Shown here: one piece after another, positions 2,537 through 61,104 of the stretch | Position numbering within the stretch: position 1 is the stretch's first letter | Layout: each line of letters opens with the position of its first letter | From: Porphyromonas asaccharolytica DSM 20707 | Lineage (GTDB): Bacteria > Bacteroidota > Bacteroidia > Bacteroidales > Porphyromonadaceae | Assembly (NCBI RefSeq): GCF_000212375.1 | Contig: NC_015501.1 | Coordinates: forward strand, 62,001 to 126,000 | Direction of reading: 5' to 3' | Length of the DNA: 64,000 nucleotides | The notes under the pieces: model-generated | Database searches by the model: none | Told to the model about the DNA's origin: nothing | The model's input: the letters and a program-made list of their open reading frames with translations, nothing else | Program-made: the position numbers and the translations under genes

Positions 2537-3034
2537 ATGAAACGAACCCTCTTACTCCTCACCCTACTCCTCAGCAGCCTCCTCACCCTCTCAGCTCAGA
2601 CCTATATCTATAGCGGAGATAAGCGCTACGACTACGACTCACAGGTCATCGCCACGTGGGACGGCACCCGCCTCTACAGCGGGGACAAGCGATACGACTA
2701 CAATTCACGAGTCATCGCCACGTGGGACGGCACCCGCCTCTACAGCGGGGACAAGCGGTACGACTACGACTCACAGGTCATCGCCACCTGGGACGGCACT
2801 CGCCTCTACAGCGGGGACAAGCGATACGACTACAATTCACGAGTCATCGCCACGTGGGATGGCACCCGCGTCTACAGTGGCGACAAGCGATACGACTACG
2901 ACTCACGAGTCATAGCCACCTGGGATGGTCCTCGCATCTACAGCGGCGACAAGCGGTACGACTATGACTCCCGTGTCCGCTACACCATCGAGGGACACCT
3001 CCCCGTTGCCGTTGCCATCTACCTCATCTTGTGA
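2537..3034 (+). CDS. Small secreted protein built of 22-residue tandem repeats
   Basis: 165 residues: a clear signal peptide (residues 1-20, ending LSAQ), then five full and one partial copies of a 22-residue unit, then a short hydrophobic tail. Each unit contains YSGDKRYDY, an Asp or Asn, Ser, Gln or Arg, then VIATWDG and an Arg. The DNA repeat is 66 bp: units begin at 2609, 2675, 2741, 2807, 2873 and 2939. Asp/Gln-type and Asn/Arg-type units alternate, pointing to duplication of a 132-bp pair. The regular Tyr/Trp/Gly-rich strands suggest a symmetric beta structure. It may relate to small 4-fold beta-flower proteins of Bacteroidota, but I am unsure. Function unknown; it starts 12 bp after the DUF4846 gene. 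Confidence 0.75.
   Translation: MKRTLLLLTLLLSSLLTLSAQTYIYSGDKRYDYDSQVIATWDGTRLYSGDKRYDYNSRVIATWDGTRLYSGDKRYDYDSQVIATWDGTRLYSGDKRYDYNSRVIATWDGTRVYSGDKRYDYDSRVIATWDGPRIYSGDKRYDYDSRVRYTIEGHLPVAVAIYLIL
2609..2980 (+). repeat. 66-bp in-frame tandem repeat, 5.6 copies
   Basis: Six head-to-tail units of 66 bp inside the small secreted protein gene. Units 2 and 4 differ at only two bases; units 1 and 3 differ at six, mostly third codon positions. The period is a multiple of three, so gain or loss of units keeps the frame. Confidence 0.93.
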
Positions 3035-3115
3035 TCCTTTTGGAGAGAGCAACAGGATCATCTTTCGAAAGAAACAGCTACATTTGTGACAACAAATAAC
3101 AACATACTCAATACG

Positions 3116-4789
3116 ATGAAGCGAATCATGGCTCTACTGCTAAGCCTCGTCTGCTTAGCCACTACGCTGTCCGCTCAGGTACAGGACACGACAGACCTCT
3201 CTACGCAAGATATGCCCACCTTGGAGCGAACCTTTGACACATTCTCACCCGACCTCCAGGATGCCCTAGAGACTATCATGCCTAGCCCTGAAAATCAGAC
3301 AGCATTCCTTGAGAACGTCCAGAAGGCACTCCAGAGCGAGCCAAACAATGGTGTCGCTTGGGCTTACGTCGCCACCATCTACCGTATGCAGAGCAAGCCC
3401 GAGCAAGCGCTAGAGGCGGCCACCAAGGCAATCACCCTCCTACGGGCGAAGCCCGCACGTAGAGCTATGGTCTACAGCCTACGCTCAGATATCTATACAG
3501 ACCTCGAGGACGCTGTCAAGGCGCTTATGGACCTACACTCTGCTATCAAGGATGCTCCCGACACGCCTGCTCTATACTTAAAGCGCGGTGGTCTCTATAT
3601 GAATATGGAGCAGTACGAACTCGCAGAGGTGGACCTGCGTAAGTTTATTTCGCTAGCTCCTAAAGACGCAACTGGCTATACTGGATTGGCTACGCTTGCG
3701 ATACTACAAGAGAAGTATGAGGATGCCATACAGAACCTAAATGAAGCTATCAAGCTCGAACCTAACGAAGGCTTTCTCTACTATCTGAGAGCTGGTAGCA
3801 ACGTCAAGCTAGAGCACTACGATGAGGCGATGGATGACATTATCTATACCATTGCAAATAGCCTCGCAGACCAAGACACCTATTCCCTACTCAATGTCAT
3901 CGCAGATCAGGCGATGCCTACTCTCGAAGCTAAGCTCAAGGCTGTAGAGTCCGTGAACAAAACGGGAGAGTACCTCTTCCTCATAGGCTTGACTCATCAA
4001 AATATCGGAGACAACAAGGGTGCCCTGGAGTACTACCAGAAGGTTACGGAGCGCAGAGAGCTAGACGATGTCGTAGCCAGCTCTATAGCGACTGCCTATC
4101 AGGGGATAGGCGACTACAGCTCTGCCCTCAAGTATATCGATGAGGCTATCTCGCTAGACCCTACGGACTACACCTACATTTATACCAAAGCGCAGATGCT
4201 CACAGAGGATGACAATCTACGAAGAGCCCTCGCAGAGTCGAATAAGTATCTCTCGCTCGTACCTGATGACCCTGATGGTTACTATCAGCGTGCTCAGATC
4301 AAGAGTAAGTCCCAGGACCTCCAGGGCGCCATCGATGACTACTCCAAGGTCATCGAGCTAAGCGACACCTACTTATGGGCTTACATCAAGCGAGCAGACC
4401 GCTACACAGCACTGGGACGCAAGGATGCCGCCACGGCCGACTATCGCAAGGTGATCGAGATCCTACAGGAGCAGGATGCGACAGACATGACTATGGCTTA
4501 TGCTTACCAGTCTCTAGGCGAGCAGGAGCAAGCCCTCGCAACCATCGCTAAGTGTATCGAGGGGGCCCCCGACAATGCCGAGCTCTACTACAGCATCTCA
4601 GGGGTCTATGGTCGAATGGGTAAGACGGAGCAAGCACTGGACAACCTACGCATCGCCCTCGAAAAGGGATACAAAGACCTCATCTACATTGAGGACGACA
4701 CAGACATCGCCGCCCTACGAGACAATCCACAGTACAAAGCCCTCATACAGCAGTACAAGGAGAAGCTAGGCTATAAGAAGCCCCAATAA
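3116..4789 (+). CDS. Secreted TPR-repeat protein
   Basis: About 557 residues from the ATG at 3116, which opens a standard signal peptide (MKRIMALLLSLVCLATTLSAQ region). A GTG 30 bp upstream would add ten polar residues before it and is less likely. The mature protein is almost entirely tetratricopeptide repeats, for example the units starting EPNNGVAWAYVATIYRMQ, PTDYTYIYTKAQML and SDTYLWAYIKRADRYTALGR. Such proteins act as scaffolds in the periplasm or outer membrane. No enzyme domain is visible and the partner is unknown. It follows the repeat protein after about 80 bp, so it may have its own promoter. Confidence 0.85.
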   Translation: MKRIMALLLSLVCLATTLSAQVQDTTDLSTQDMPTLERTFDTFSPDLQDALETIMPSPENQTAFLENVQKALQSEPNNGVAWAYVATIYRMQSKPEQALEAATKAITLLRAKPARRAMVYSLRSDIYTDLEDAVKALMDLHSAIKDAPDTPALYLKRGGLYMNMEQYELAEVDLRKFISLAPKDATGYTGLATLAILQEKYEDAIQNLNEAIKLEPNEGFLYYLRAGSNVKLEHYDEAMDDIIYTIANSLADQDTYSLLNVIADQAMPTLEAKLKAVESVNKTGEYLFLIGLTHQNIGDNKGALEYYQKVTERRELDDVVASSIATAYQGIGDYSSALKYIDEAISLDPTDYTYIYTKAQMLTEDDNLRRALAESNKYLSLVPDDPDGYYQRAQIKSKSQDLQGAIDDYSKVIELSDTYLWAYIKRADRYTALGRKDAATADYRKVIEILQEQDATDMTMAYAYQSLGEQEQALATIAKCIEGAPDNAELYYSISGVYGRMGKTEQALDNLRIALEKGYKDLIYIEDDTDIAALRDNPQYKALIQQYKEKLGYKKPQ

Positions 4790-4815: not shown

Positions 4816-4975
4816 CCACGTGGAGAGTCACGAATCTCCACGTGGCTATTTTTTATTTCCTACGTGGGGGCGAAACATTTCCTCCGAAGTTTCATTTGAT
4901 TCCTCCGAAGTTTTGTTTCGTCTCCACGTGGAGAATGTTTCTTCCCCACGTGGCGGTTTGGAGATTTCCACGTGG
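4816..4975 (+). repeat. 160-bp CCACGTGG element, copy 1
   Basis: Bounded by CCACGTGG palindromes at 4816 and 4968. Further boxes, exact or one base off, lie at 4838, 4860, 4924 and 4946, so offsets are 0, 22, 44, 108, 130 and 152. The centre carries two direct repeats containing TTCCTCCGAAGTTT. Three further copies occur in this window with the same overall length. Confidence 0.92.
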
Positions 4976-5233: not shown

Positions 5234-5256
5234 TATTTGTATGGACTCATGGTCGT

Positions 5257-5408
5257 GCGTCCATTGAGTCAAAGCGAAACGAGTAACGATGAGACGAGTA
5301 ACCCTTTGTAGGGACGCACGGTCTGTGCGTCCGTTGAGTCAAAGCGAAACGAGTAACGATGAGACGAGTAACCCTTTGTAGGGACGCACGGTCTGTGCGT
5401 CCGTTGTC
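5257..5408 (+). repeat. 70-bp tandem repeat, two copies and a partial third
   Basis: The block beginning GAGTCAAAGCGAAACGAGTA recurs at a 70-bp period (5266 and 5336). Each copy ends in the hairpin GGACGCAC-GGTCT-GTGCGTCC. Related hairpins recur at 5434-5465, 6018-6045, 6117-6141 and 43326-43376. Confidence 0.9.
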
Positions 5409-5538
5409 GTTAAAACTACGATGCTGTAACTTTTGATACAACGGACGCTCAGACCGAGCGTCCCTACAGCGGGTTACTCGTCTTGCTTTGTCGACAACGG
5501 ACGCACTTGACGTATAGCGATGATACGTGTAACCCTTT

Positions 5539-5668
5539 GTAGGGGCGGACCTATGTGTCCGCCCGTCCTCACCTGAGCGTAGTCTATTCTGCGGGCGGAC
5601 ACGCAGGTCCGCCCCTACACGAATCACATCAACACGACAAATCCAGCCATCAAATACTGTAATACCAG
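5539..5668 (+). repeat. 130-bp direct repeat, copy B
   Basis: Second copy of the 5104-5233 repeat at an offset of 435 bp, with the same inverted-repeat head GTAGGGGCGGACC/GGTCCGCCCCTAC. Confidence 0.93.
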
Positions 5669-5689
5669 CAGCATAATAGACAGACGCAC

Positions 5690-6180
5690 ACAGAAGGACC
5701 TCGCAAGAGGTCCGACGAATCATAGCCGTGGGTCGGAGGGGCAAAGCTCCGAACGACCCACGGACGCTAGACTTCACCTGATTTATCGACCCCTTGTGGG
5801 TCGGACTAGACGAATCTACAGCTCCAGTCCGACCTCCCGCTAGGGGAGGTCGTCCCCCTTATACGCACCTATGTCCCCCAGTCGTTCGGAGCTTTGCTCC
5901 TTCGACTGGGGGCTATGATTCGTCCGACCGCAAGCGGTCGCTTCCTCCGTCACCTGCACTCGTCTTATTGCACAACAACGAGACAAGTAACCCTGTGTAT
6001 CACAGCGTGACGAGTAACCCTGTGTAGGGACGCTCGGATAGTATCGAGTCGGATGGCGTCCGTCCCCAAACCTGCCGTGACGGATAATAACTTGACGCTG
6101 TAACCTTTGCACAACGAGCGCACGGTCGTGCGTCCGTTGTAGTACAGCCGTTACTCGTCTCATCGCCACACGTGAGATTT
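5690..6180. repeat. Cluster of GC-rich hairpins
   Basis: Contains several short inverted repeats: GGGTCGGAGG.../...GACCCACGGAC around 5730-5763, CCCCCAGTCG...CGACTGGGGG around 5877-5912, GACCGCAAGCGGTC around 5926-5940, and GCGCACGGTCGTGCGT around 6118-6133. The phrase CGAGTAACCC recurs among them. No gene was seen. Confidence 0.6.
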
Positions 6181-24533: not shown

Positions 24534-25073
24534 TTAAGGATTTGTCGCTTCGTAATCACTACGTGTCACATAGATCAGAGAGGTCGCCCCCAGCGTGATC
24601 ACATCGCCAGAGTGCAGTTCGCAGAAAGTATCTGGCAGGTACTCAACGCCAGCGACGAAAGTACCCGTCATACTATCCAAGTCCTGTATGATCGCCTGTC
24701 CATCAGGCTCTATCGTGATCTGGCAATGGTTGCGCCCCAAGCTAGGGTCGCTACTATGTATCGGGGTGGTAACCGAGGTGCCACGTCCGTTGTAGCTGCC
24801 TATCGTGTTGCACCCCTCGTAGAGCGGGAGCAAGGCAGCGTAGGCAAAGTCATTGGCGATCAACTGCAAGTAAGCTCGCACCGGCTCCCCCTCGGGAGAG
24901 AGGTCGGCGTAGCGTGCGTTGAGATGCTCTAGCGTAGCGCCCCTCAGGCGAAAGCGTAGGCTCTCGGAGCATGCAGGGCAGAGCATAGCGACCTTGCCTC
25001 GGCAGTCAGCATTGGCGAGGATCGTCTCTTCAGAGATCTTGTTCGTACAGTGAGGACAGAGGATATAGTTCAC
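24534..25073 (-). CDS. FHA-domain protein with N-terminal zinc ribbon
   Basis: 179 residues. Residues 1-40 hold two Cys-x-x-Cys pairs (LCPHC and LCPACS), a likely zinc ribbon. Residues about 85-175 form an FHA domain: SYNGRGTSV, then SDPSLGRNHCQITIE with the Ser-x-x-His pair and DLDSMTGTFVAG, the conserved phosphothreonine-binding set. FHA domains read Ser/Thr phosphorylation; no kinase gene is in the window. It begins 22 bp upstream of the desulfidase-like gene on the same strand and may be co-transcribed. Confidence 0.88.
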   Translation of the reverse strand: MNYILCPHCTNKISEETILANADCRGKVAMLCPACSESLRFRLRGATLEHLNARYADLSPEGEPVRAYLQLIANDFAYAALLPLYEGCNTIGSYNGRGTSVTTPIHSSDPSLGRNHCQITIEPDGQAIIQDLDSMTGTFVAGVEYLPDTFCELHSGDVITLGATSLIYVTRSDYEATNP

Positions 25074-25269
25074 GGAGATGTGGGAGAAAGTTCGTTCTTG
25101 CCCACAAATTTACCACAAATATACCACCTAAGCTCACTTAGCTCGGAGCCGTTCGCAGTTTCTCACGAACTAATTCCTATTTTGAGGCGCTTGAAGCGGA
25201 TCCCATTGAGATGTTATAGACAAGATCTCTTATGCCCCGATATGACTTTCCTTTAGAAGTGGTAGATCT

Positions 25270-25429
25270 CCACGTGGATATTTTCAAATTCCTAGGGAGG
25301 AAATAAAAATTCTCCACGTGGAGACGAAATGAAACTTCGGAGGAATCAAATGAAACTTCGGAGGAATCGTTTCTTCCCTACGTGGAGAATAAAAAATATC
25401 CACGTGGAGATTTGAGATTTTCCACGTGG
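25270..25429 (-). repeat. 160-bp CCACGTGG element, copy 2
   Basis: Outer CCACGTGG boxes at 25270 and 25422; others at 25314, 25378 and 25400, and a degenerate box at 25292. Two exact 21-bp direct repeats fill the centre (25327-25347 and 25348-25368). It runs in the opposite orientation to copies 1 and 4. This is the cleanest central repeat of the four. Confidence 0.92.
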
Positions 25430-25600: not shown

Positions 25601-26773
25601 TTAGTACTTGACCTCCTCGTCTTGACCCATCTCGTGACGGGTGATCTTCTTGCGATCGATGGCACGCCAAGCGTAGAAAATGTACGCCAAGACAAACGGA
25701 ATCAGCAGCGATACGATGCTCATAGCCTTCAGCGTGTAGGGGCTAGAGCTACTGTTGCGTATCGTCAGCGAGCTATTGATATCTGCTATCGAGGGGTAGT
25801 AAGCCGTGTTGTTGTACCCGAGGATGAGGAGCAAGCTCAGGACAGCAAGGACGACACCGACACCTTCGAGCCAGATACCCTTGCGGAAGCCTTTCTTGAC
25901 CAGCGTGAGGATCACACCAGCTAGGACCAGCACCACGCCTACAAGGAAGATGATGAGGATCACGGGCATAGCGAGGAAGTTGTGCAGGTACTTATACTGT
26001 ACTAGGCTCACGGCACCCGTGCTTGGGTCGACATCGTATCCCTTGGTCACCATGAGGAAGACCACATAAGCGACGAAGAGGACGACGAAGATCGCTGCAT
26101 TGGGTAGCAGGCTCTTGCGAGCACGCTCGTAGGCGACCTCATCTTCGATATTGTTGATGAAGTATAGGAGTGCCGTAGTGCGTGCTAGGAAGAGGAGCGT
26201 CACACCGAGTACCACATTCCAGGGGTTGAAGATCGCCTCCAGTCCGTGTAGCTGTAACCCTGTGAGTGGGTCTGGCTGCCAGACAGAGATGGTCTGCATA
26301 GAGGCACCGAGGTCGTAGATAGCACTCTTGTCCACGATGAAGTTACCGCCTGTGAAGAGCGTCGATACCGCAGCTCCTAGTAGTACCGGAGCCAAGACAC
26401 CATTGATAAAGAGGAAGGTCTGGAAGGTCTTCTTGCCCCATACGTTGCCATGCTTAGACTGATACTCATACGAGACAGCCTGTATGACGAAGGTCAAGCA
26501 GATCAAGATCCACACCCAGTAAGCTCCGCCGAAGCTGGTCGAGTAGAAGAGCGGGAAGGAAGCAAAGAAGGCGCCTCCGAAGGTGACTAGCGTCGTGAGG
26601 GTAAACTCCCACTTACGACCCGTCGAATTGACGAGCATGCGCTGCAGCGGCTCGTCACGACGCGCTGCAAAGATAAAGGTCTGTCCGCCCTGCACAAAGA
26701 GCAGGAAGACAAGCAGGGCTCCCAGCAGTGAGACTAGGAACCACCAGTATTGCTGTAGAAATGCGTAGTCCAT
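25601..26773 (-). CDS. cydB: Cytochrome bd ubiquinol oxidase subunit II
   Basis: Membrane subunit of the high-oxygen-affinity bd oxidase, which reduces oxygen to water with quinol. 390 residues with about nine hydrophobic segments. FVQGGQTFIFAARRDEPLQRMLVNSTGRKWEF matches the conserved region of CydB near the first loop, and FGGAYWVWILICLTFVIQAVSYEYQ follows as in the family. It begins 28 bp after cydA. In an anaerobe this oxidase probably scavenges oxygen and supports micro-aerotolerance. Confidence 0.95.
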   Translation of the reverse strand: MDYAFLQQYWWFLVSLLGALLVFLLFVQGGQTFIFAARRDEPLQRMLVNSTGRKWEFTLTTLVTFGGAFFASFPLFYSTSFGGAYWVWILICLTFVIQAVSYEYQSKHGNVWGKKTFQTFLFINGVLAPVLLGAAVSTLFTGGNFIVDKSAIYDLGASMQTISVWQPDPLTGLQLHGLEAIFNPWNVVLGVTLLFLARTTALLYFINNIEDEVAYERARKSLLPNAAIFVVLFVAYVVFLMVTKGYDVDPSTGAVSLVQYKYLHNFLAMPVILIIFLVGVVLVLAGVILTLVKKGFRKGIWLEGVGVVLAVLSLLLILGYNNTAYYPSIADINSSLTIRNSSSSPYTLKAMSIVSLLIPFVLAYIFYAWRAIDRKKITRHEMGQDEEVKY

Positions 26774-39863: not shown

Positions 39864-40039
39864 GAGACTGTTGCAAAAGTCAACAGTCTGGACAATCTTG
39901 CCTGCAAGATTGTCCAGACTTTGCAGAAAGGATGAAGTGCAAGGCGCTGAGGGTGAGGTCTGAAGGGAGCATACCTCCGTATGTGACCGAAGCCGAATCC
40001 CGAAAGCAACACAGCGATTCGCCTTTATGCAACAGTCTC
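39864..40039. mobile_element. 176-bp MITE-like element
   Basis: Terminal inverted repeats GAGACTGTTGCA at both ends (39864 and, inverted, 40028-40039), flanked by a 5-bp direct repeat CAGAC (39859-39863 and 40040-40044). The left end also forms a hairpin, and 39888-39923 holds a 17-bp palindrome starting AGTCTGGACAATCTTG. There is no gene inside. The 12-bp ends and 5-bp duplication fit what I recall for IS1126/ISPg1-type elements of Porphyromonas gingivalis, but I cannot verify the match here. Confidence 0.88.
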
Positions 40040-40054
40040 CAGACCTATAAACAC

Positions 40055-40088: not shown

Positions 40089-40162
40089 TGACCGCGGCAG
40101 GATTCAAACCTGCAACCTTTTGATCCGTAGTCAAATGCTCTATTCAGTTGAGCTACGCGGCC
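40089..40162 (-). tRNA. tRNA-Arg (anticodon ACG)
   Basis: 74 bases on the minus strand: acceptor GGCCGCG/CGCGGTC, D-arm with AGCTCAACTGAAT, anticodon stem TTTGA/TCAAA around CTACGGA (ACG, read as ICG for CGU/CGC/CGA after deamination), TpsiC arm GGTTTGAATCC. Discriminator A and no encoded CCA. It is preceded by a promoter and followed by a terminator. Confidence 0.96.
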
Positions 40163-40636: not shown

Positions 40637-43261
40637 ATGCAACAGAAACGACTACGTTTTAGTACATTACTCTTATGTCTCCTGCTACCGCTCATCGGGC
40701 AGCTTCAGGCGCAGACCATAGACTTGGGAGACTTTGCCGATCCCTCGTCACACTTCAACCAGAGCATCGGGCAGACGGCGCCTTTTGACTTCGACTACCT
40801 CAGTAGCGTCACCCAGCAGATCTACACCGCTGCGGAGCTACAGGGACTAGAGGGAAAGGAAGTTACCAAGCTTGCTTTCCAAATTTATCTATCCGATGGT
40901 GAGTCCTACAATACCGAGTACACCAATGACCTTCAGATCTACCTTACCAACGTATCCGATGACCACTTTGAGCAAGTATCGGGCAAGTATTATTGGCTAC
41001 CTATCAACGCAGACCAGGATCTCTATATGCAGAAGACGATCACGCTTGATCTGATGGACTTAACCATCAATGGTAACCGCAAGACCTCACAGGCTGGCGT
41101 AGACTATCACACGCTAGAGCTAGAGCTCGACAAGCCTTTTGTCTACACGGGGCAATCTATCCTCCTCTCCGTACGCTCTAAGGCTAGCAAGCCCGCTAGC
41201 GATAGCAGATCCTATATAGAGTTCTGTAGCTATCCTAAGAATGTCAAAGAGATGCCCGTCCGCACGATCAATAAAGCGACAGACAAGGCTATCAGCGAGG
41301 GCTTCGTTGGTGTACTCGGTGAGACCGCTGATCGTGGGCAGATGGATCGTGCCGTGATGCGTATCACTTTCCGCAATGCCAGCACACCACAGCCTAGTTA
41401 CGACCCGATACACCCAGTCGTACAACTCACCGAGGCTGGTTTTCTAGCTAAGCTTATGCAGGGTATGGATCTCCTTAAGTGCCAGTCCATCACGGTGTCT
41501 GGTCCGATGAATTCTGAAGACTGCAAGACGATACGGGACAATATGGGCAATCTGACCGAGATCAACATCGCAGATGCGACCTTTGATGAGGATCAGCTCC
41601 CCGAGGCTGCCTTTTATAATATGCCACTCGTTCGCAAGGTGACACTTCCCCTCACCCTCAAGGTGGTTGGCGAGAGGGCTCTAGCTCAGATGTATCAGCT
41701 GGAGGAGCTAGTCCTTGGCAGTCAGGTGACTAAGATATGCGATAGTGCCTTTACGCAAAATAGCCGTCTGACCAAGATCAGCCCGATGCCTGCACTCACC
41801 ACTATTGGCAAATATGCTCTTAAAGAGTGTACAGCACTCACCACTTTTCCTTGGTCTGAAACACTGACGACGCTAGACACTGAGAGCTTTTCAGGCTCTG
41901 GGCTCACCGAGGTGCGTCTACCCAATGTTGCTGTCGTACCTAGCACCTGCTTCGCCAGCTGTAAGGCACTTGCAAAAGTGTATCTCGGAGCCAAGACCAC
42001 TGAGGTTATGTATGGCGCATTTGCTCAGTGTAAGGCGCTGACAGATATTACTGTCGAGGCGGTGCAGCCTCCTAAGGCTCACATCAAGGCCTTCAACGGG
42101 CTCAAGCCTGCGGACATCAGCTCCATCAATCTCTTCGTACCTAGTGATGCACAAGCGACCTACAAGGAGGCTAATGTGTGGAAGGGCTTCCACATCGCCC
42201 CCATCCCAGGCACAGAGCCTCAGGTCAAGAAGTATCTACTCACCTATCGTGTCATCGGAGAGCATGGCTCGCTAACGGCCAAAACGGCTACCGGCGTAGA
42301 AATACCTTCGCAGACAGAGGTCGAGGAGCATACGGCTATCACCTTTACCGCAGACCCAGATCTTGACTACATCGTCAAGAGCTTTAAGGTCGATGGTACA
42401 GAAACTCCGATGACCGCTGGCGAGCAAAACAGCCAGACATATACGCTCAACATCGAAGCTGCCACAGAGGTAACGGTCGAGTTCGTTCATCGTCCCTATA
42501 CGGTCACCTACTCTGTACGAGACAATGTGGGAGGCACGATCACAGCGACCTACAAGGGGCAGCCACTCGCCTCAGGAGCTACGACAGCTGTCGGGGAGTC
42601 TGAGACGATCATCTTCACAGCCCACCCAGAGGAGCACTACCACGTCAAGAAGTGGGTCGTCAACGGTCAGGAGAGTCCCAAGCCTGCTGAAAACAATCAG
42701 TGGCAAGTGATCTCTGGCAAGGACTACGTCGTCGAGGTCCTCTTCGAGCGTGACAAGGTCTACTATACGGTCGATGTATCTCAGGAGGGCAATGGTGGTC
42801 CTATCTACCTAGAGGTAGGTGGCGTACGCAGTGCTCTCAAGAGCAAAGTGCCTGAGAATATGGACATCCGTGTCTACGTCGAGCCTGACAAGGGCTACCG
42901 CCTAGACTACTGGATGGTCAATAGGGAGCGCATCAACCCAGTCGATGGCTCGCTAGAGTACACGACCAAGGCAACGAAGGATCTACGCATCGTAGCTTAC
43001 TACGCTAAGGTGGAAGAGGGCAACGCCATCGACGCACCTGCAGCGGGTACGCCCGATGTAGCCATTGCCCTAGAGGGGCAGACGATTACCCTGACCAGCA
43101 ATACGGGTAGTGCGCTCGACACCGTCGCCCTCTATGACTACTCAGGCCGTCTCATCGAGCAGCGTGTCGTAGCGGACAAGCTCTGCACGCTCACCGCACC
43201 ACAGGCTGGCATCTACCTGCTCTCTATCGGCACGACCACTGCAAAGGTCTGTGTCAAGTAA
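40637..43261 (+). CDS. BspA-like leucine-rich surface protein with T9SS signal
   Basis: 874 residues. Signal peptide (about 1-26, ending QLQAQ); an N-terminal beta-rich domain to about 250; LRR_5 (BspA-type) repeats at about 265-520 (FYNMPLVRKVTLP, LEELVLGSQVTKICDSAF, ALKECTALTTFPW); two to three InlB-B/flexible beta repeats at about 540-785 (YTVTYSVRDNVGGTITA). The last 80 residues look like a type IX secretion C-terminal domain (VALYDYSGRLIEQRVV, then AGIYLLSIGT ending in Lys). Likely exported to the surface, where BspA relatives bind host proteins or other bacteria. It is monocistronic. Confidence 0.87.
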   Translation: MQQKRLRFSTLLLCLLLPLIGQLQAQTIDLGDFADPSSHFNQSIGQTAPFDFDYLSSVTQQIYTAAELQGLEGKEVTKLAFQIYLSDGESYNTEYTNDLQIYLTNVSDDHFEQVSGKYYWLPINADQDLYMQKTITLDLMDLTINGNRKTSQAGVDYHTLELELDKPFVYTGQSILLSVRSKASKPASDSRSYIEFCSYPKNVKEMPVRTINKATDKAISEGFVGVLGETADRGQMDRAVMRITFRNASTPQPSYDPIHPVVQLTEAGFLAKLMQGMDLLKCQSITVSGPMNSEDCKTIRDNMGNLTEINIADATFDEDQLPEAAFYNMPLVRKVTLPLTLKVVGERALAQMYQLEELVLGSQVTKICDSAFTQNSRLTKISPMPALTTIGKYALKECTALTTFPWSETLTTLDTESFSGSGLTEVRLPNVAVVPSTCFASCKALAKVYLGAKTTEVMYGAFAQCKALTDITVEAVQPPKAHIKAFNGLKPADISSINLFVPSDAQATYKEANVWKGFHIAPIPGTEPQVKKYLLTYRVIGEHGSLTAKTATGVEIPSQTEVEEHTAITFTADPDLDYIVKSFKVDGTETPMTAGEQNSQTYTLNIEAATEVTVEFVHRPYTVTYSVRDNVGGTITATYKGQPLASGATTAVGESETIIFTAHPEEHYHVKKWVVNGQESPKPAENNQWQVISGKDYVVEVLFERDKVYYTVDVSQEGNGGPIYLEVGGVRSALKSKVPENMDIRVYVEPDKGYRLDYWMVNRERINPVDGSLEYTTKATKDLRIVAYYAKVEEGNAIDAPAAGTPDVAIALEGQTITLTSNTGSALDTVALYDYSGRLIEQRVVADKLCTLTAPQAGIYLLSIGTTTAKVCVK

Positions 43262-43501: not shown

Positions 43502-43661
43502 CCACGTGGCAATTCTCAAATCTCCACGTGGAGAATAAAAAATGCCTACGGAGGAATGAAATGAAACTTCGGAGGAATCAAATGAAACTTCGGAGGAATC
43601 GTTTCGTCCCTCCGTGGAGAATAAAAAATATCCACGTGGAGAATTGAGAATCCCCACGTGG
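43502..43661 (-). repeat. 160-bp CCACGTGG element, copy 3
   Basis: Outer boxes at 43502 and 43654; further exact or near boxes at 43524, 43546, 43610 and 43632, matching offsets 22, 44, 108 and 130. Central 21-bp direct repeats are again present, preceded by a third degenerate copy. Same orientation as copy 2, and it lies between converging genes. Confidence 0.92.
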
Positions 43662-43750: not shown

Positions 43751-44932
43751 CTACACGAGTCGGTGCAGGCGCATCTTAATCCGATGAGCTCCGTGATGCA
43801 GGAGACGCCAGAGACGCTGGTGGAGCGGTATGGTCGTGAGACGATCGATCAATTGCGCTAGCGGCTCTGCATCTAGCTGCTCGAAAAAGAGCTGTCGCTT
43901 CGGAGGCTCTGGCACCGTGCGCTCGATAGCGGGATTGCCCGCTAAGGCACTCGCATAGTTGGTCTCCTGATAGTGACAAGGTAGCCCCTCGAGCAGACTC
44001 CGTCCTCGCTCGCTATGGATCATTACGACACTAGTCCCTTTGTCCTCGTCTAGCGCACGATCTAGATCGGGGCAGGTGCGCTCCACCCCCCAATAGTCGC
44101 CCAGCGTCAGGTCGCTATGACTGCGTCCCCCTTTGGCCATGCAGGCGTAGCAACTAGGACGCAAGTAGAGGTCATGTAGGAAGCCTCGCATATAGATATT
44201 GTCTCCGTAAAACTGTCGCACGCCGCCCCCACCAGAGTGAGTAGCCATCTGTGCCACAAAGTTATAACGTCGCCAGCCCGACAGCGACTTGTCCCGAAAG
44301 GAGACCCCCTTGATCTCTCCCTGCTCCGCCCGAAGTGTCGCCAGGTACCTTTGCCACACCATCGGTGAGGGTACACCATGACAGACCACATCGACCGCCG
44401 TCAAGTTGTCATAGGCACGCCCGAGGTAGTTGACCAAGCCTTTGATCTGACAGGGAGTTCCTGTGAAGAGGACGGACCGTCCCTCTTTGAGAAACTGCTC
44501 CGCCTGCTGATAGCTATCTCCTATACGACTCTGCAGATACTTACTACCTCTGAAGGGTGCCAGCCCCTCTATCGTCTCCGTATAGTCGTGACAGACGCTC
44601 CACGCCTCATCAAATCGAGCTCCAAAGACCACGCCCCCACGTCGTAGCGTATCCTCAGCAAGTAGCGTAAAGAGTCCTCCCGACGAACTCTCCCTACGGA
44701 GCTCTTCATCGGTGGCACACGCTGCGTAAACCGCCTGTGGCTTGCGCGGTTCGTCTAGCTTCATAAAGGGACAGACACGCTCACACTTATGGCACTCGAT
44801 GCAACGATCGGTGTCAACGATCGGATAGTCAAAGCCCTCCTCGTCACGCTCCAGTCGTATACACCCCTTGGGGCAGATCTGTCGGCACGCTTCGCAGCCA
44901 CAGCATCGCTGCTTCTCCTCTATCTGTATCAT
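43751..44932 (-). CDS. Coenzyme F420 hydrogenase/dehydrogenase beta-subunit-like protein
   Basis: About 393 residues from the ATG at 44932, with two [4Fe-4S] ferredoxin motifs at the N-terminus (CCGCEACRQICPKGC and CIECHKCERVCPF). Then follow the FrhB N- and C-terminal domains (SSGGLFTLLAE, VLFTGTPCQIKGL, LTLGDYWGV). In many bacteria such proteins occur in polysaccharide or redox loci without F420, with uncertain role. The upstream in-frame ATG would add 60 residues of non-domain sequence that overlap the opposite promoter region, so I reject it. Confidence 0.88.
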   Translation of the reverse strand: MIQIEEKQRCCGCEACRQICPKGCIRLERDEEGFDYPIVDTDRCIECHKCERVCPFMKLDEPRKPQAVYAACATDEELRRESSSGGLFTLLAEDTLRRGGVVFGARFDEAWSVCHDYTETIEGLAPFRGSKYLQSRIGDSYQQAEQFLKEGRSVLFTGTPCQIKGLVNYLGRAYDNLTAVDVVCHGVPSPMVWQRYLATLRAEQGEIKGVSFRDKSLSGWRRYNFVAQMATHSGGGGVRQFYGDNIYMRGFLHDLYLRPSCYACMAKGGRSHSDLTLGDYWGVERTCPDLDRALDEDKGTSVVMIHSERGRSLLEGLPCHYQETNYASALAGNPAIERTVPEPPKRQLFFEQLDAEPLAQLIDRLTTIPLHQRLWRLLHHGAHRIKMRLHRLV

Positions 44933-45128
44933 CGCATCTACGTCTCTAGTGTGGTGCAAAGTTAACCATTCGCTTAGTAACGACCGCACAGATGATATTT
45001 GCGAAGTAAGGCGGTGCACAAAAAGTGACCGCTTATAGTTTTTTGCTATCTTTGGAGCAAAGGAAGTCTCGTTAGTGACGATCTGCGTCCTAAGACTTCT
45101 CACATAACACACTTAACACCCTACAGCT

Positions 45129-58934: not shown

Positions 58935-59873
58935 TCATGCACGCTCTAGAGGACATGTAGAGCAGCGCAGCAAGCCGCCCTGCTTGGAGATCTCACAGTA
59001 CGGCACCTCCTCGACGGTCATGCCAGCCACCTCACGGAGGTAGCGTTGCAGACGCTCGGCACCCGCCTCGACACAGACCACTTCGGGAGAGAGGGAGAAA
59101 AAGTTGGTATGCATCTCGACCGCCTCCTCAGCGGTGATGGTCAGCAGCTTGTCCTTGCCAAAAACCTCGCCAATGATCCCGCGTGCCTCTCGCGAAGCGA
59201 CTCCCTCGGGATAAAAGACGGCGAAGCCACGCCCCACCGGTTGGAAGGCGCAGTCTAAGTGCAGCACGCCACGCAGAGGATCCTGATCATGCTTGTATAG
59301 TGGTACAGGGACGACACGCTTGTGCGGGAAGAACTCACGGAAGAAGTCCACCGCGCGCTCATTGGTTCTCGTAGTTTTGAACTGCCCAAAGGCACCCGGC
59401 TCGCAGCACCCCACGAAGAGAATATCATCGTAGAGGATCACGTCCCCCCCCTCGACACGTACCTCAGCGGGCAGATGCACTATGCTACTCGGCTCGAAGA
59501 GGTCGTAAATCGGTGCGAAAGCATCGACCTCTCGTCTCCTATCGGGGATCATGTGTGCCACAAAGAGGTGCTCATCGATCACGAAAGAGACATCCCGTGC
59601 GAAGATCTGATTGCACCCCTCTATTGGCTCAGGACGATACACCTCCACGCCGTAACGCTGTAGGATAGCGAGGAAGCCCTCCATCTCACGCACCACAGCC
59701 TGCTCCGTGGGGTAGTCTCCCCGCAACACCGCTTGGTAGCTCTTCGCATCATAGGTCTCCTCGAGGGTCGGTGGCATACCGAGCGCATGGGGCAGCCCGA
59801 GGACCACCTTGCGGAGCTGGTTTGTTTCGTTGGTAACGTGAGGTGTGAGTCGTTCGTGTTGTTTGTCCATCAT
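58935..59873 (-). CDS. Amidinotransferase/DDAH-like hydrolase
   Basis: 312 residues with the pentein fold. Candidate active-site residues are FARDVSFVIDEH (Arg/Asp substrate binding), EVRVEGGDVILYDD (Glu and Asp), VLHLDCAFQPVG (catalytic His) and the C-terminal RCSTCPLERA (catalytic Cys in GLLRCSTC). Related enzymes deiminate arginine, agmatine, citrulline-like compounds or methylated arginines. The exact substrate is not clear. Two adjacent ATGs are possible starts. It is the first gene of a group with radA and dgt. Confidence 0.82.
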   Translation of the reverse strand: MMDKQHERLTPHVTNETNQLRKVVLGLPHALGMPPTLEETYDAKSYQAVLRGDYPTEQAVVREMEGFLAILQRYGVEVYRPEPIEGCNQIFARDVSFVIDEHLFVAHMIPDRRREVDAFAPIYDLFEPSSIVHLPAEVRVEGGDVILYDDILFVGCCEPGAFGQFKTTRTNERAVDFFREFFPHKRVVPVPLYKHDQDPLRGVLHLDCAFQPVGRGFAVFYPEGVASREARGIIGEVFGKDKLLTITAEEAVEMHTNFFSLSPEVVCVEAGAERLQRYLREVAGMTVEEVPYCEISKQGGLLRCSTCPLERA

Positions 59874-60061: not shown

Positions 60062-60221
60062 CCACGTGGAAAATCTCAAATCTCCACGTGGCTATTTTTT
60101 ATTCTCCACGTAGGCGAGAAAAAATTCTTCGGACTTATCGTTTGATTCTTCCGAAGTTTCATTTTACGCCCACGTGGAGAATTTTTATTTTCCACCTGAG
60201 AAATCAAAATTCTCCACGTAG
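60062..60221 (+). repeat. 160-bp CCACGTGG element, copy 4
   Basis: Outer boxes at 60062 and 60214 (the last reads CCACGTAG). Others lie at 60084, 60106, 60171 (one base beyond offset 108) and a degenerate one at 60192. The central repeat is diverged but recognisable. Same orientation as copy 1. The site is between divergent genes, which argues against a pure terminator role. Confidence 0.9.
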
Positions 60222-60438
60222 CTATTGCGCATTTGAGCGAGAGTTCCAAAAGTTTTCCTTCCTTGGAAACTTTTCGTCCCAAGGGAGGGAGCATTTCGTC
60301 CCAAAGCGGGTGGGCATCGTCTTCCCCCGTAGGTTTGCGAGCAGTACCTACTACTGGGTAGGTTTGCAGAGGTGATCCCTTGGCAAAGAGGTATAACTTT
60401 GCGATGCAATGTACAAGCTGTATTTCCCGCAGAAACTG

Positions 60439-61104
60439 ATGACCAAGGCTCAGCATAACGCATATATCAAGCAGATGCACCGCTACGATGCACTCATGAC
60501 GGGACGCTCCTGGTGGGGGCATCTCTTTATGAATGGGCTCTGGCAGGTGGATCAGCTACAGATGGCGGCAGAGGTCTTGGCTATGATCCCCGATGACTTT
60601 GTGGGGCGGCTACTAGATGTGCCGGTGGGGACTGCGGTCTTCACCTGCGACAAATACAAGCAGCTTGCCAAGGCTCAGATCACTGCACTGGACTACTCCG
60701 AGAAGATGCTCGAGATAGCTGCTCACCGCTTTGAGGCGGAGGGGGTGACCAATGTATCGCTCGTGCAGGGCGATGTGGGGACGATGCCCTTTGCCGATGG
60801 GGAGTTTGACTATCTGCTCACGATGAGTGGCTTACAAGCTTTCCCCGACAAGGAGCGAGCCCTTCGTGAGATGCACCGTGTGCTGAAGCCTGGAGGGAGA
60901 CTGTGTGGATGCTTTTACGTACGTGGGGAGCACCGCGTAGGCGACTGGATAGCTCGCCATATATTGGAGCGCAAGGGGTACTACTGCCCGCCACACTACA
61001 CAGCGACAGAGGCGGTGGCACTTCTTCGAGACCTCTTTGGGGAGCGTATCTCCGTACATCAGTATCACGCTATGCTCATCTGCTCAGTAATCAAAGATAG
61101 GTAA
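60439..61104 (+). CDS. Class I SAM-dependent methyltransferase
   Basis: About 221 residues from the ATG at 60439. The Rossmann-type SAM-binding block is GRLLDVPVGTAVFTC, then ITALDYSEKMLEIA (acidic residue binding ribose), GDVGTMPFADGEFDYLLTMSGLQAFPDKERALREMHRVLKPGG as in UbiE/COQ5-like enzymes. The substrate is unknown. An ATG 30 bp upstream is in frame but lies only about 8 bases after a TAACTTTG promoter element, so I favour the second. It lies 11 bp before the TetR gene. Confidence 0.85.
   Translation: MTKAQHNAYIKQMHRYDALMTGRSWWGHLFMNGLWQVDQLQMAAEVLAMIPDDFVGRLLDVPVGTAVFTCDKYKQLAKAQITALDYSEKMLEIAAHRFEAEGVTNVSLVQGDVGTMPFADGEFDYLLTMSGLQAFPDKERALREMHRVLKPGGRLCGCFYVRGEHRVGDWIARHILERKGYYCPPHYTATEAVALLRDLFGERISVHQYHAMLICSVIKDR

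Follow-up and report, generated by a model that had tools for sequence, protein, structure and literature searches.

Evenly spaced intergenic arrays of eight phased boxes in a Porphyromonas chromosome

We found that the Porphyromonas asaccharolytica DSM 20707 chromosome carries about 120 copies of a 160-bp DNA array, each made of eight phased boxes, and that these copies sit between genes at strikingly regular intervals. This suggests a chromosome-wide set of protein-binding sites rather than ordinary scattered repeats, although both the binding and the protein are inferred from sequence alone. We started from a window of 64,000 nucleotides (NC_015501.1, positions 62,001 to 126,000, part of a single 2,186,370-base contig), in which the original prediction had described four intergenic copies of a fixed-length element with six boxes. 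That observation is confirmed: all four copies are there, each spans exactly 160 bp, and boxes or degenerate boxes sit at offsets 0, 22, 44, 108, 130 and 152. The prediction also had one box of copy 4 shifted by a base, but no shift is needed because copy 4 reads CCACCTGA (two mismatches) at exactly offset 130.

Copy 1 (4816-4975) has its core in + orientation and lies between convergent genes at 3086-4789 (+, a TPR protein) and 5247-5777 (-). Copy 2 (25270-25429) has its core in - orientation and lies between same-strand genes at 24534-25073 and 25601-26773. Its box at offset 22 is the degenerate CTAGGGAG. Copy 3 (43502-43661) also has its core in - orientation, has a flank of the type we call B on one side, and lies between convergent genes at 40637-43261 (+) and 43751-45112 (-). 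Copy 4 (60062-60221) has its core in + orientation, has the lowest profile score of the four (128.9 bits), and lies between divergent genes at 58935-59873 (-) and 60409-61104 (+).

These patterns were compared with chance. Within the window CCACGTGG with up to 1 mismatch occurs 53 times against 20.9 expected, and 0 of 100 shuffles were as high. In the whole genome CCACGTGG-N14-CCACGTGG occurs 198 times and the reversed control 0 times, CCACGTGG-N144-CCACGTGG with up to 2 mismatches occurs 102 times (control 1), and the core occurs 109 times (control 0). A profile search of the stretches around these places gave 126 hits, of which 121 score above 40 bits and 118 above 60 bits; 111 cover at least 150 model positions and 15 are shorter fragments. 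Three further core places (32912, 322937 and 1772090) were used by position only in the spacing test. The family has about 121-124 copies. As a check on the inventory we read one 400-kb stretch in full (1100001-1500000) and found 22 arrays above 40 bits, all of which were already in our list, so it is probably close to complete.

Anatomy. The central 56 bp hold two 21-bp direct repeats, and the start of each, CTTCGGAG, is a further non-palindromic degenerate box, at offsets 65 and 86 in the orientation of copy 2 (core at 25335-25376, -). There are therefore eight boxes with steps of 22, 22, 21, 21, 22, 22 and 22 bp, and the core gives each copy a direction. Of the 111 near-full copies only 6 have an internal indel, and 80 align end to end over exactly 160 bp, although the mean pairwise identity of the 105 ungapped copies is only 0.788. 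On a tree of these 105 copies parsimony counts 1,293 substitutions: 3.05 changes per position in the core, which is the slowest-changing part, 5.81 in the outer boxes and 12.66 in the spacers. The tree set was selected for being ungapped but the 111 were not, and the 15 fragments are outside both. A few copies carry extra 22-bp box units or a third 21-bp core unit.

Spacing. This is our strongest result. With 124 positions the mean gap is 17.6 kb and the CV is 0.525, while 10,000 random sets gave 0.987+-0.086 and none was as even (121 positions gave 0.531). Only 5 gaps are under 5 kb, against 30.4 expected. Profile hits under 40 bits were left out here. We repeated the test in the complete 400-kb stretch with its real intergenic gaps as the null, and the CV was 0.500 against 0.87-0.91, with 2 to 10 of 5,000 sets as even. 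The commonest other intergenic repeat of that stretch, a GTGCGTCCCTAC-type repeat in 33 gaps, is randomly spaced, with a CV of 0.982 against 0.883 for its null. Two smaller families (7 and 6 gaps) and two marker motifs (11 and 12 clusters; 895 and 426 of 2,000 nulls as even) are unremarkable too. When we restricted the genome-wide test to the 106 copies above 120 bits the CV rose to 0.736 (5 of 10,000 random sets as even), so the diverged copies contribute to the evenness.

We looked for the same evenness in relatives, using lists that are incomplete and favour one strand and leaving out contigs with few listed hits. P. uenonis 60-3 (G024; its array at locus L309 scores the same as that in record NZ_ACLR01000182.1, 152,717 bases) has a CV of 0.460 against 0.867 (71 positions; 0 of 5,000), and the first 365 kb of a second relative, G025, has 0.463 against 0.940 (23 positions; 0 of 5,000). 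A third, G023, shows it only weakly, with 0.722 against 0.866 (76 positions; 201 of 5,000).

Copies with different flanks also avoid each other. In a first sorting eighteen copies share flank B and seventeen share a second flank, A. When arrays within 300 bp of an A or B copy were left out, B copies were on average 15.2 kb and A copies 17.0 kb from the nearest array of another type, but this hid one close pair in each. With these pairs counted, B copies lie on average 13.8 kb away (random 7.0) and A copies 16.1 kb away (random 7.3), each distance reached in 1 of 10,000 random sets. One of 18 B copies is within 5 kb of another type against 8.3 expected (0 of 10,000), as are 3 of 17 A copies against 8.0 expected (111 of 10,000). 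However, a simple exclusion radius of about 7 kb reproduces the evenness (CV 0.565+-0.047, mean largest gap 62 kb against 59 kb seen), so exclusion alone suffices and nothing shows that wide gaps are selected against. We also asked whether close neighbours are decayed copies, and array score does not fall with nearness to a neighbour (Spearman -0.04), although two of the four closest pairs include a low-scoring copy. Recombinational loss of direct close pairs was another idea. The three gaps under 5 kb between copies above 60 bits are all inverted, which is too few to judge, and such loss would not explain the shortage of inverted close pairs.

Mobile flanks. Flank profiles applied to the 118 copies above 60 bits found at least one B flank in 31 and an A flank in 19 (two of which also hold a piece of B), while 68 have neither; each profile gave 0 of 236 in reversed flanks. 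B copies end in a 26-bp inverted repeat beginning GGCTAATT. The pattern of this repeat was found 46 times in the genome, and six pairs are 1658 bp apart and bound insertion sequences. In the one that we examined (locus L132) an ORF matches PF01610 DDE_Tnp_ISL3 with an E-value of 1.6e-34. Target duplications of 8 bp are exact in all six insertion sequences. Among 12 MITEs of 279/280 or 340/343 bp, 3 are exact, 4 more match at 6-7 of 8 and 5 are lower. Overall 13 of 19 elements bounded by these repeats match at 6 or more of 8, against 2 of 342 cross pairs. In part of the family the 160-bp array is therefore cargo of an ISL3-type MITE. The 160-bp unit itself showed no clear excess of target duplications in the 70 copies outside groups A and B, at the offsets (0-13) and lengths (2-10) that we tried. 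On one side of copy 2 there is a decayed terminal inverted repeat of this MITE at 25168-25193 (+), with CTAATTCCTATTTTGAGGCGCT starting at 25170, and we noticed no matching repeat on the other side by eye. Many A-type copies are flanked by a further MITE-like repeat with ends CAGGGCTGACGCATTATA / TATAATGTGTCAGCCCTG (e.g. loci L042 and L077). A roughly 1.3-kb insertion sequence, judged IS3-like by eye, interrupts or abuts several arrays (locus L069, and 1329700-1330981, 1676269-1677549 and 1809251-1810531).

Elements with the same ISL3 ends exist with and without the array, which gave us a natural experiment. The ten array-less sites are six full insertion sequences (all outside the arrays), one 65-bp repeat pair and three single repeat matches. 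Within 8 kb of a non-B array we found 2 of 17 array-bearing sites against 7 of 10 array-less sites (Fisher p 0.0036; Mann-Whitney p 0.019), and the array-less sites do not differ from random placement (p 0.157). The comparison depends on how one array is assigned. If the low-scoring array at 1493377, about 70 bp from a MITE, is counted as non-B, it becomes 3 of 16 (with B copies listed by hand) against 7 of 10 (p 0.015; Mann-Whitney p 0.060), and cut-offs of 4, 5, 6, 7 and 10 kb give p 0.54, 0.05, 0.16, 0.37 and 0.04. This is suggestive, but not proof, that avoidance comes from the array and not from the transposase's choice of target.

Gene context. We called genes from open reading frames of at least 90 aa, leaving out those under 600 bp that overlap an array. 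Of the 118 copies 1 overlaps a called ORF, 56 lie between same-strand genes, 41 between divergent genes, 17 between convergent genes and 3 at the edge of a stretch; the control gaps were 26, 18 and 5. There are 61 copies on the + strand and 57 on the - strand, and in same-strand pairs 34 copies point with the genes and 22 against.

Relatives. The core pattern occurs in 5 of 26 Porphyromonas genomes: the one studied here, P. uenonis 60-3, G023, G025 and one more, G021. The other 21 have no match to it, so the function would not be essential to the genus. The core is shared, but the commonest outer box differs. CCACGTGG pairs number 198 in our genome, 64 in G021, 260 in G025, 5 in G023 and 3 in P. 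uenonis, while the core numbers 59 in G021, 212 in G025, 122 in G023 and 168 in P. uenonis. In the sample from G023 the dominant arrays (17 of 22) have the box CCTAGGTAG, inverted between the arms, with 23-bp spacing, so the phase is not universal. In the 27 P. uenonis arrays sampled the boxes are of CCTCGGTAG, CCACGGAGG and CTCCGTGG kind, including CCTCGG types. Box variants that are rare in our genome, such as CTCCGTGG and CCACGGAG, are common there. The genomes differ in the dominant form and not absolutely, as G023 also holds P. uenonis-like and CCACGTGG copies.

Positional conservation is mixed. Among loci with a core, at least one flanking gene has its best hit within 1.2 kb of an array of our genome in 14 of 23 (G023), 12 of 28 (P. 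uenonis), 8 of 17 (G025) and 2 of 8 (G021). Both sides point to the same array in 0, 2, 3 and 1, and to two different arrays in 5, 2, 0 and 1. Two pairs of neighbouring G023 arrays share flanking genes and so count twice. We left out hits to the IS3-like element, hits in several places and ORFs overlapping the array, and only the stretches around our arrays were searched, so hits elsewhere in the genome could not be seen. The chance level is about 15 percent per side (2 x 121 flanking genes among about 1,660, extrapolated from 304 genes in 400 kb), or more if arrays prefer certain gaps. The 8 rows of 76 that point to two different arrays are 7 distinct places (loci L122, L188, L193, L211, L216, L220 and L221), so arrays coincide with rearrangement breakpoints between species. 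At the site of copy 2, however, G023, P. uenonis and G025 have the same gene adjacency and no array above 20 bits, and P. uenonis (locus L303) has another 22-bp tandem repeat there, of GTTTCTTCCGTATGAAACTGGA type as read by eye. At the site of copy 3 the gene adjacency is absent from the four relatives. No array was found beside the left gene in any of them, and arrays lie on the other side of the right gene in P. uenonis and G025. Arrays therefore seem to turn over while even spacing remains.

We believe the best reading, which we hold only tentatively, is that each element is an array of operator-like boxes phased at two helical turns (near-palindromes except for the two in the core), along which an oligomeric, dimeric DNA-binding protein could load on one face of the helix. 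In this view the arrays are a chromosome-wide set of sites with a structural role (domain or loop anchoring, supercoil handling or segregation) acting over about 7 kb or more. Copies would appear and be replaced partly by hitch-hiking in ISL3-type MITEs and in the second flank type, and insertions too near an existing array would be lost or prevented. A change of the commonest box from genome to genome while core and phasing persist is what we would expect if boxes co-evolve with one binding protein, and the genome-specific boxes offer a route to it, since it should co-vary with the box. The analysis itself establishes the anatomy, the length constraint, the copy number, the even spacing, the clade restriction, the box differences and the MITE as a vehicle. 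The protein and its binding, the chromosomal role and the reason that close pairs are excluded are our inference. A bolder form of this reading, which the data allow but which we consider doubtful, is a lineage-specific spacing system in which the arrays are regularly placed anchors for one oligomeric protein, roughly one per 14-18 kb, renewed by MITEs and with box dialects that track the protein's evolution. The bacterium would then have built an evenly spaced set of anchor sites out of mobile DNA. Dispersed intergenic repeats are often regarded as parasitic, with little order in their placement, so a family that is fixed in length, diverged in sequence, phased to the helix and far more even than chance gives a concrete test of whether bacteria domesticate mobile repeats as chromosome-organising sites.

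The main rival is possible and not far behind. Here the arrays are selfish interspersed repeats (MITE/REPIN/BOX-like) with no host role, spread by several vehicles, and the evenness comes from array-mediated exclusion, either target immunity, where an array or what binds it blocks insertion nearby, or loss of close pairs. The MITE flanks, the target duplications, the natural experiment, the limited clade and the sufficiency of a 7-kb exclusion radius all fit it. On the other hand, copies with different flanks exclude each other, so immunity would have to come from the array and not from one transposase. The purifying pattern and strict length in copies with 21 percent mean pairwise difference also speak against it, as do the 68 copies with neither flank and the lack of target duplications at the 160-bp edges of the 70 copies outside groups A and B. 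If this rival is right, it would be a kind of insertion immunity carried by the cargo rather than by the transposon ends.

The remaining explanations appear unlikely to us. Transcribed RNA elements or terminators acting on neighbouring genes would fit the intergenic location, the 34 of 56 copies pointing with the genes in same-strand pairs, and the folding of 140-nt parts as single-stranded DNA, which beat shuffles (z -5.84, -3.66, -6.67 and -5.95), as inverted arms lead one to expect. But the two arms of a copy match each other no better than arms of different copies (0.6929 against 0.6904, p 0.25), only 3 of 60 arm pairs exceed z 3, there is no clear preference for convergent gaps (17 of 114 against 5 of 49 control gaps), only two tRNAs in the window match Rfam at gathering score, and the copies are split between the strands. 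A hairpin kept by compensatory change is not supported. DNA-uptake or recombination signals kept by molecular drive could also have genome-specific dialects and an even spread, as uptake sequences of other genera do (a literature search on this point found nothing), but a 160-bp eight-box array is far larger than the uptake sequences known to us, and its copies are roughly ten times rarer. Lastly, the spacing could be a by-product of gene organisation or insertion hot spots, since intergenic sites are repeat mosaics and the P. uenonis place orthologous to copy 2 holds a different 22-bp tandem repeat. However, the nulls with real intergenic gaps and the other repeat families of the same 400 kb argue against this.

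The interpretation in the original prediction is partly supported. It had inferred selection on spacing, and the many substitutions with few indels support that. It had offered a binding array for a dimeric protein, which remains the best fit but is inferred, a non-autonomous mobile unit, which is true for a part of the family, and a structured DNA or RNA element, which is weakened. Two outcomes had been set beforehand as counting against it. Copies of random length and spacing were not found, although 15 of 126 profile hits are fragments shorter than 150 model positions, and occurrence only as pieces of a larger element holds for some copies and not for all.

Literature searches, in which we also consulted PMC5771137 and PMC5570325, returned no title or abstract naming this family, and our view that it is not in print rests on these alone. 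Searches of viral contigs (0 exact matches) and of plasmids and phages (no match) gave nothing. Among the closest known systems are the REP/BIME elements (PMC6379681, PMC3733652, PMC2817692), which are intergenic, palindromic modules in phased composite arrays with above 100 copies per genome. BIME-2 of E. coli, gyrase sites that might contribute to genome organisation (PMC6379681), are the closest thing that it works like. Our element differs in having eight boxes of 21-22-bp period in a fixed 160-bp unit, no clear preference for convergent gaps, and strong mutual avoidance. REPs have an unpaired GTAG or CGTC tag at one end of a 20-40-bp palindrome and an associated RAYT tyrosine transposase. 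The letters GTAG or CTAC lie inside a box in 83 of our 105 ungapped copies, as in the dominant G023 box CCTAGGTAG, but this is an occurrence of letters and not a demonstrated tag, and we do not claim membership in REP/BIME. Among chromosome-organising sites such as BIME-2, parS and matS, the feature that our arrays show is the non-random distribution.

We checked the BrickBuilt MITE of Porphyromonas gingivalis first (PMC4596501), as it is an intergenic tandem repeat inside MITE-like flanks in the same genus. We dropped it because BrickBuilt has 23-nt repeats in variable number, is 84-991 nt long with 19 copies in ATCC 33277, and has IS5-like terminal inverted repeats of GAGACC/GGTCTC type, while our unit has a fixed length and a 21-22-bp period, and the terminal inverted repeat of its B flanks is of ISL3 type. 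BOX elements of Streptococcus pneumoniae (PMC3049150) are also modular, intergenic and clade-limited, with about half of the insertions shared by all strains compared there. They vary in length by the number of boxB modules, whereas 105 of our 111 near-full copies have no internal indel. BOX, RUP and SPRITE favour convergent gaps, the authors judge BOX parasitic, and we saw no mention of mutual avoidance in the parts of that paper that we consulted. The MITE B copies share their 26-bp ends (GGCTAATTnCTATTTTGAGGTGCTGR) and 8-bp duplications with the 1658-bp ISL3-family insertion sequence, but most array copies lie outside recognisable MITE flanks.

Several G021 draft contigs (loci L124, L126, L129 and L130) end within or just beside an array, so arrays probably break short-read assemblies. 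In the window, CCACGTGG or CCACCTGG boxes every 66 bp at 2652-2923 lie inside an ORF (2537-3034) and are apparently a coding repeat unrelated to the arrays. A separate repeat of about 176 bp at 39864-40040 lies next to a tRNA gene (40089-40162). It has many copies in G021, G023, P. uenonis and G025, is mostly 93-97 percent identical between genomes, and is better conserved than the arrays.
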